From Leptonema illini DSM 21528 (GTDB lineage: Bacteria; Spirochaetota; Leptospiria; Leptospirales; Leptonemataceae): a stretch of DNA of 64,000 bases. The DNA is taken from positions 1,667,550-1,731,549 of the forward strand of contig NZ_JH597773.1 of NCBI RefSeq assembly GCF_000243335.1. The letters are read 5' to 3'. The notes beneath the pieces are model-generated. The model was not told where the DNA came from. It ran no database searches and was given only the letters and a program-made list of their open reading frames with translations. A program made the position numbers and the translations under genes. Positions 18,476 to 20,985 of the stretch are shown one piece after another; within the stretch, counting starts at the first letter, position 1; every line of letters begins with the position of its first letter.

Positions 18476-18991
18476 ATGGATTATTATTCTTCAGAGGATC
18501 GAGCCGCGGACGCTCACCGTATCAATCGCAGCGAGCTTCCGTCGGCGAAAAAAGCCGCTTATCTGAACGAAAGGGTTATACGCGCGCAGATGCGCCGTGG
18601 ACGAAATGCCGTCGACCTCAGCCTTATTAAGTGGCGCATCATCCGACGTGCTTATCGTTATATATCAGAGCGGCCAGTTCCGGCCAAATACTACGCCGAC
18701 CTGTATCCGCTGCTCGGTTACAGGAGCTGTGCACTCTGCTTACAGGGCTTTGATCGGTATAGCGAAGCTTATGGCTCAATAGACGATGGAAGCACCCGCT
18801 GCCAGTTTTGCAGTCTCGCGGCAATCGATCGCTGTACACGACCCGGATCGACCTTCGTCCAGATTGAGGGCCTGTTGCATTCTCCTGCGTATGTCTACAC
18901 CGTGCCTGAATCGAAGCTCAAAGATGCGAATGAAAGACTCGGCGGCCTTATCGATACGATGATCAAAAACCTGATGAGTCTTCGCAGTTAA
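18476..18991 (+). CDS. Hypothetical protein with two Cys-x2-Cys pairs
   Basis: The protein has 171 residues with no signal peptide. CALC (about residues 85-88) and CQFC (about 107-110) suggest a zinc-binding knuckle. The N-terminal half is rich in Arg and Lys. No family is recognised. It follows the M23 peptidase gene by 49 bp on the same strand and may be co-transcribed with it. Confidence 0.6.
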   Translation: MDYYSSEDRAADAHRINRSELPSAKKAAYLNERVIRAQMRRGRNAVDLSLIKWRIIRRAYRYISERPVPAKYYADLYPLLGYRSCALCLQGFDRYSEAYGSIDDGSTRCQFCSLAAIDRCTRPGSTFVQIEGLLHSPAYVYTVPESKLKDANERLGGLIDTMIKNLMSLRS

Positions 18992-19767: not shown

Positions 19768-20985
19768 TCATTTCGCCTCTGCGCCTAACCTCTCCAGCGA
19801 AAACGCCGGATTCGCAAGCGGACGTACGGCGAGCGAAAGCAACATCGTCTCGTTGTCGTCGGCGGCGATGCGATTCGAGTGAATCGTTCCGCAAGATTTG
19901 CATCGATGCAGAAGAGCCCATTCTCCGTCCCTGCGCACCCAGACGGAGATCGGCTCCATGACCGAACGACAGAGCGAGGCGCGATCGCCGGGATCGTTAT
20001 CCACATGCAGGCTATGAAGGCAATGCGGACAGTGATTCCGGTTCTTTGTGCCGGCGCCGGCCGTGCCGATCAGCTGACCACAATGGCGGCAGCGGAACGT
20101 ATAATCGGACTCATCGGCCACATACTTTGTTTGCGCCGCTTTTGCTCGCGCTTCTGAAGATTGCTCTTCAAGCAGCAATGGCGGACGATCGGAGCCAGGC
20201 ATATCGATGATCTGCAATCCCTGAAACAAAAAGAGCTCGATGACCGAGGTGCGTTGAATAGCAGGCTTCGCATGCGCCCTCTCTGGACCCCCGACAGGAT
20301 TTTCGTGAGGATTCCTGTCATGGGTTGCCAGAGAGGGCCGTGAGTCATTCTGCCGCGATTCGTCTTCGGCCTGTAGCCACCTGAGAAAGGTCGTCTTGCC
20401 GCTGCCAGACGGGCCGATCAGGGCGGTGCGTCGTCCGCGAAGACGATCGAGAATCCGGTCCCTTTGCTCGTAGGAACGAACAATAGAAGAACGAACGATT
20501 GCGGGAATGGATGGGTCGATCTCATGCGCCTCTGAATCCACGACAAGCGTGAGATCCATCTGCATCCCCTGCTCCCGAAGCTGCTGCACCTGTCTCTGCA
20601 TCGCTTCAATGAAGACTGGCGTTGACCTGCGCTCCTCCAGAGGCAGGAACAACAGCAGATGCTGCACACCGGCGGCGATTCTTCTGCTGCCGGTCGTAGA
20701 TTCGCGGTATAGATTCCCTTCAGATTCAAGGATGCGGACAATCCGACCCTGCGGCGAGACAAGAACGCGATCGCCGGCGACGGGTCGTTCGTCCGTTAGC
20801 GTACACGAGGTGATTGATCCATCGGGCAGAGATACGCGTGCACTGCGCCCGTCACAGCGAAGAACAATGCCGTCGACGGCCTGCACGGCCGTGACCGACT
20901 GCTCCAGACCGCTACGGCTGGATTCGCTGTGTTTCTTTTTTTTCGAATGCTTTCTCGAAAGAAAGCCATCGGATTCGTAATTCAT
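19768..20985 (-). CDS. RsgA-like permuted GTPase fused to an RNHCP zinc domain
   Basis: The protein has 405 residues. After a Lys-rich tail, an S1/OB-like domain (about 35-90) is followed by the circularly permuted GTPase order of RsgA. The P-loop is GPSGSGKTT (about 192-200), and IIDMPGSDRPP takes the place of the DTPG switch. The G4 motif NKxD, which should precede the P-loop, reads VVDSEAHE, so guanine specificity is doubtful. RsgA's own zinc domain is absent. In its place a complete RNHCP-type domain (about 295-395) carries FRCRHCGQLIG, RNHCPHCLHSLHVDNDPGDR, HRCKSCGT and NRIAADDNE. RNHCP proteins are normally free-standing and of unknown function. A role in ribosome assembly is possible but unproven. 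Confidence 0.75.
   Translation of the reverse strand: MNYESDGFLSRKHSKKKKHSESSRSGLEQSVTAVQAVDGIVLRCDGRSARVSLPDGSITSCTLTDERPVAGDRVLVSPQGRIVRILESEGNLYRESTTGSRRIAAGVQHLLLFLPLEERRSTPVFIEAMQRQVQQLREQGMQMDLTLVVDSEAHEIDPSIPAIVRSSIVRSYEQRDRILDRLRGRRTALIGPSGSGKTTFLRWLQAEDESRQNDSRPSLATHDRNPHENPVGGPERAHAKPAIQRTSVIELFLFQGLQIIDMPGSDRPPLLLEEQSSEARAKAAQTKYVADESDYTFRCRHCGQLIGTAGAGTKNRNHCPHCLHSLHVDNDPGDRASLCRSVMEPISVWVRRDGEWALLHRCKSCGTIHSNRIAADDNETMLLSLAVRPLANPAFSLERLGAEAK

Follow-up and report, generated by a model that had tools for sequence, protein, structure and literature searches.

The window analysed here is a 64,000-nucleotide stretch of the Leptonema illini DSM 21528 genome, and it carries an open reading frame whose product joins an RsgA-like N-terminal half to a C-terminal RNHCP domain (Table 1). 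A sequence-only reading had proposed that this gene encodes a permuted P-loop protein of RsgA type with RNHCP fused to it, and Pfam, HH alignment and the predicted fold agreed with that description. Over the N-terminal half, the codon signal was highest in the annotated frame, at a modest level, and it was absent from an insert within the G domain. The same window contains a 171-aa ORF (18476-18991, plus strand) with a Cys-rich stretch (CALCLQGF...CQFC) that gave no Pfam or NCBIfam match.

Table 1. Coordinates of the fusion gene and its parts in the window, and of the regulator gene seen at other RNHCP loci
Feature (residues)	Position	Strand	Basis or remark
ORF, RsgA-like N-terminal half and RNHCP	19768..20985	-	405 codons, ATG start, uninterrupted frame
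OB-like region (27-104)	20674..20907	-	AlphaFold strands; HH alignment to RsgA without the P-loop above all shuffles
Circularly permuted P-loop (G) domain (105-270)	20176..20673	-	Pfam PF03193 below cut-off, HH alignment, PDB fold matches
Insert inside G domain (211-246)			low confidence in AlphaFold
Degenerate G4 slot, VVDS instead of NKxD (148-151)	20533..20544	-	motif table and HH register, uncertain by a few residues
G1 / P-loop GPSGSGKTT (191-199)	20389..20415	-	sequence
G3 motif DMPG (261-264)	20194..20205	-	sequence
Linker at the site where the RsgA zinc finger starts, no zinc motif (271-295)	20101..20175	-	CX4-6CXH..C absent; pLDDT low at 272-293
RNHCP domain (296-405; Pfam part 296-383)	19771..20100	-	Pfam PF12647, alignment of 24 sequences
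CD3324/Mor-family regulator, other loci	L035 322-630; L039 5036-5365; L044 5419-5721; L047 4869-5258; L079 5664-5990; L099 5670-5999		

The C-terminal domain is a complete RNHCP

The Pfam profile PF12647 matched the C-terminal part of the protein over positions 3-90 of 90 (E=4.7e-37, 126.3 bits against a cut-off of 24). An alignment of 24 sequences showed that the domain has every invariant residue, seven Cys and three His. The domain therefore resembles other RNHCP proteins in its completeness, its invariant Cys/His residues and its RNHCP/HRCxxCG motifs. Whereas those proteins are usually about 110-200 aa long, the L. illini domain sits behind an RsgA-like half. The Cys/His pattern suggests that RNHCP binds metal, putatively at two zinc sites.

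To our knowledge, no function has been assigned to the Pfam domain RNHCP. Our search of 5.39 million open-licence papers found no biological literature naming it, and papers in that set on RsgA paralogues or spirochaete RsgA contained nothing on RNHCP. No structure of RNHCP or experiment on it was found in the open-licence literature or by structure comparison. A search for solved relatives returned none by sequence and none that was significant by fold; the RNase P zinc ribbon Rpp21 recurred among the RNHCP fold matches, all of its matches being non-significant. It is possible that RsgA-RNHCP fusions have been recorded elsewhere, without remark.

A short form of RNHCP (about 110 aa, with a profile match that ends near position 85 and a lower score) was also observed at L120, L121, L122, L125 and at the short-form loci within L172-L184, never with an adjoining RsgA gene. 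One genome (G210) carries the short form together with a fusion, and one actinobacterial genome has two RNHCP genes in tandem (L131/L135, G587:C4:351175-351854).

The N-terminal half is a very divergent RsgA

The RsgA_GTPase profile PF03193 matched residues 89-214 with E=2e-5 and 24.9 bits, which is under its curated cut-off of 30. NCBIfam returned weak P-loop matches only, including RsgA TIGR00157 at 15.5 bits. Because many ATPases share the P-loop, the remainder of the N-terminal half was also tested for homology to RsgA. HH alignment of residues 1-292 with three RsgA sets gave scores of 67-91, compared to a shuffle maximum of 24 (40 shuffles each). For residues 20-180, located N-terminal to the P-loop, the scores were 22-42 against shuffle maxima of 19-20, in keeping with the earlier proposal of an OB-like domain ahead of the P-loop. 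An ABC- or AAA-type P-loop as the source of the N-terminal half was rejected because the weak matches to these families were limited to the P-loop, while the region preceding it aligned with RsgA above every shuffle.

The AlphaFold model had a mean pLDDT of 70.7 and was weak at residues 211-246 and 272-293. Its six PDB fold matches at E<0.001 were all RsgA structures (7boi_W, 9evt_7, 6h4d, 5uz4_Z, 6zjo_B, 1t9h), a result that depends in part on sequence comparison since RsgA fusions were present in the AlphaFold input alignment. These analyses confirmed that the N-terminal half is a very divergent RsgA-type OB and permuted P-loop region. The concern that profiles might support neither domain was thus contradicted, as RNHCP was supported by Pfam and the RsgA half by HH alignment. 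Like RsgA/YjeQ/YloQ (small-subunit-dependent GTPase A, PF03193, TIGR00157), the protein has an OB-like region ahead of a permuted P-loop domain that carries G1 and G3. Unlike them, it lacks the G4 KxD and the zinc-finger motif, scores below the Pfam cut-off and bears an additional C-terminal RNHCP.

Two RsgA motifs are lost from an additional RsgA paralogue

Motif comparison revealed that the L. illini protein retains both G1 GxxxxGK[ST] (GPSGSGKT) and G3 DxPG (DMPG). The KxD of G4 was conserved in 56 of 56 other RsgA-type proteins, including locus L037, whose MKAD was the single KxD case overlooked by the motif pattern. The zinc motif CX4-6CXH..C was likewise conserved in all 56. The L. illini protein alone lacks each of them. 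The loss of NKxD predicted by the sequence-only reading was therefore correct, the G4 slot reading VVDS as the sole case among 57 proteins (with a register taken from HH alignment and uncertain by a few residues). So was the replacement of the RsgA zinc domain by RNHCP, as no CX4-6CXH..C occurs past the switch. The DMPG switch, which had also been pointed out, is present; the free-standing RsgA of L197 also carries DMPG, and this is normal RsgA variation.

The suggested search for a canonical RsgA elsewhere in the genome yielded two more RsgA genes, at C1:214858 and C1:315635, both with all motifs present. We thus rejected the possibility that the fusion is the only RsgA of the cell; it adds to the housekeeping enzyme and does not replace it. 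The L. illini protein is best explained as an additional RsgA paralogue that is evolving fast.

RNHCP is fused to or adjacent to RsgA in several phyla

To place the fusion in context, 84,980 species genomes were scanned using a single RNHCP-only pattern, and the best 80 loci from other genomes were retained. Ranking used the full L. illini protein, which biases these 80 loci toward fusions and introduces no bias toward gene adjacency. Among them, 15 encode an RsgA-RNHCP fusion, eight have a separate same-strand RsgA gene within 0.9 kb, and 57 have no linked RsgA. All nine fusions scanned exceeded both Pfam cut-offs.

The fusions fell into three kinds, whose names were coined in the present analysis. 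One has [TN]KxD with G[SA]SG[VA]GKS (L036, L038, L046, L056). Another has NKxD and mostly GHSGVGK[ST] (L041, L045, L068, and L140, L150 and L153 from the Armatimonadota survey). The divergent SKWD kind has an altered yet complete P-loop (L035, L039, L044, L047, L049, L051). The RsgA zinc finger is kept in all three. Compared to the fusions of Bacillota, Eggerthellaceae and Armatimonadota (for example L036, L038, L039, L041, L056 and L140), the L. illini protein has an identical domain order, RsgA then RNHCP. In contrast, those fusions retain the G4 KxD and the zinc finger, and even the SKWD class is far less divergent than the L. illini protein. The fusion itself is not unique; what sets L. 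illini apart is solely the extreme G-domain divergence and the missing zinc finger. In genome G213 (L045), no RsgA besides the fusion exceeded the cut-off; the fusion may be the sole RsgA of this draft genome, which may be incomplete.

Surveys of individual phyla and orders relied on the RNHCP profile alone and are less biased than the best-80 scan. In Spirochaetota (198 genomes), RsgA directly adjoins 10 of the 16 RNHCP loci besides that of L. illini. RsgA lies downstream in nine of these pairs, and the domain matches are 5-87 bases apart. Such adjacency occurs in five of seven Spirochaetota families, for which we estimated a chance probability of about 8e-15 at about 8e-4 per locus (a rough figure, with one count per family). 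The proposal that other spirochaetes might share the fusion was thus answered in part: RsgA is a frequent neighbour in the phylum, and no same-family relative carries the fusion. In Armatimonadota, four of 21 RNHCPs are fused to RsgA. Lachnospirales contain 13 long-form RNHCPs, one fused and two adjacent to RsgA, and 16 short forms, none of them linked. In Actinomycetota, linkage was confined to Eggerthellaceae; in both this phylum and Lachnospirales, most RNHCPs have no linked RsgA. Fusions or neighbours are now known from Bacillota, Armatimonadota, Actinomycetota and Spirochaetota, which strengthens the earlier view that the fusion is a clue tying RNHCP to ribosome assembly.

RsgA was the sole consistent neighbour of RNHCP. 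The others were only transporters, a CD3324/Mor-type regulator (six loci) and PrfC (six loci). The small CD3324/Mor-family gene lies just 5' of several SKWD-class fusions and of some stand-alone RNHCPs (Table 1). The gene for a PrfC-like (release factor 3) translation-factor GTPase is found near RNHCP in L042, L062, L064, L086, L100 and L113, at a distance and on a strand that vary.

RsgA-RNHCP fusions have more than one origin

The RNHCP tree recovers the L. illini domain and the free-standing RNHCPs of its family as sisters (SH-aLRT 91). Furthermore, the start of the L. illini protein (MNYESD) resembles that of a same-family stand-alone RNHCP (MKYKSD). Together, these observations suggest that the RNHCP part is resident and was not imported. 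The same-family RNHCP relatives have no GTPase part, and their RsgA genes are on other contigs. No orthologue of the N-terminal half was found in 21 same-family genomes.

The RsgA tree rejected a single origin of all RsgA-RNHCP fusions (p-AU 0.0004), so that these fusions arose more than once. The intact-motif fusions of Clostridia and Eggerthellaceae nest within a clade whose other RsgAs adjoin RNHCP, a pattern that the fusion of neighbouring genes would produce. The G domain of L. illini grouped with the SKWD class (SH-aLRT 98), to which its N-terminal half also had its highest HH score. This placement is tentative given the very long branch of 4.2 changes per column. Moreover, the traits of that class, SKWD in G4 and a retained zinc finger, differ from the VVDS and missing zinc motif of L. 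illini.

Discussion

The link between RNHCP and RsgA is well supported. Because RNHCP is fused to or lies beside RsgA in several phyla, we predict that it likely works alongside RsgA in small-subunit assembly. For the L. illini protein itself, we infer the 30S mechanism, the nucleotide state and any checkpoint role. We consider it fairly probable overall that this protein is an RsgA paralogue in which RNHCP, resembling a zinc ribbon, acts on the 30S subunit as an arm of RsgA or as its partner.

E. coli YjeQ requires its OB fold to bind 30S and its zinc region to do so efficiently; its C-terminal helix brings about RbfA release and GTPase stimulation (PMC4436671). In the mechanism that we propose for the L. 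illini protein, the OB fold would dock on the late-assembling 30S subunit close to the decoding centre, and RNHCP would contact rRNA or a bound assembly factor, acting as a zinc-ribbon-like arm that helps RsgA to engage the maturing subunit or a factor bound there. RNHCP is added behind a zinc-finger-bearing RsgA in the other fusions and occupies the place of the lost finger in L. illini; in this protein alone, it may assume the role of the zinc finger in 30S binding. The loss of G4 predicts a loss of guanine specificity, and the G domain might either bind nucleotides without such specificity or serve as a scaffold. A precedent is SpoIVA, which belongs to the TRAFAC proteins, has a modified G4 and acts as an ATPase (PMC7952092). 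SpoIVA and the L. illini protein are both P-loop proteins that descend from GTPases and have an altered G4. However, SpoIVA is a sporulation coat polymer that does not derive from RsgA. S. aureus RsgA is described as binding (p)ppGpp (PMC8579695); having lost guanine recognition, the L. illini paralogue could, as a speculation, be uncoupled from this signal.

Alternatively, the GTPase half could be decaying, left over from an earlier RsgA-RNHCP fusion, with RNHCP as the only part that remains useful and the G domain disappearing. The length of the G-domain branch, the loss of G4 and of the zinc motif, the insert at residues 211-246 devoid of codon signal, and the same-family relatives that have RNHCP without a GTPase half are all consistent with decay. 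Yet 290 codons are still open and show an in-frame codon signal, the P-loop matches the consensus, and an RsgA fold is still predicted by AlphaFold and matched in the PDB, which makes this explanation unlikely in our judgement. An artefact of assembly or a frameshift in the L. illini genome, the latter named as a potential flaw by the sequence-only reading, is a far less credible origin for the fusion, and we give it hardly any weight. A single genome of the genus was compared and no same-family relative has the fusion, but the frame is single and uninterrupted, and genomes from other phyla, assembled independently, show the identical domain order. We therefore rejected a strain-specific frameshift, and the fusion stands.

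RNHCP could also be a zinc module that binds RNA or nucleic acids in general, its link to RsgA reflecting one pathway among several; in L. illini, it would then anchor a P-loop domain to an RNA outside the ribosome. Most RNHCPs are not linked to RsgA, the short form was never linked in the loci surveyed, and the domain bears a weak, non-significant fold resemblance to Rpp21. Since RsgA alone nonetheless recurred consistently as a neighbour and as a fusion partner, we regard such a general role as rather improbable. The many RNHCPs without an adjoining RsgA suggest that the partnership with RsgA is perhaps not universal and that RNHCP may also act alone.

Returning to the RsgA partnership, a broader reading, which we advance tentatively and hold to be possible rather than probable, is that RNHCP acts together with RsgA, in several phyla, as a hitherto undescribed factor for small-subunit assembly or for a checkpoint. 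In L. illini, it would have taken the place of the RsgA zinc finger, and the G domain would have escaped control by guanine nucleotides and hence possibly by (p)ppGpp. Fusion and adjacency to RsgA give the function-less RNHCP a specific and testable assignment, late 30S assembly. The L. illini protein, with its RsgA scaffold, an RNHCP in place of the zinc finger, a lost G4 and two other RsgA genes in the same genome, is a natural experiment.
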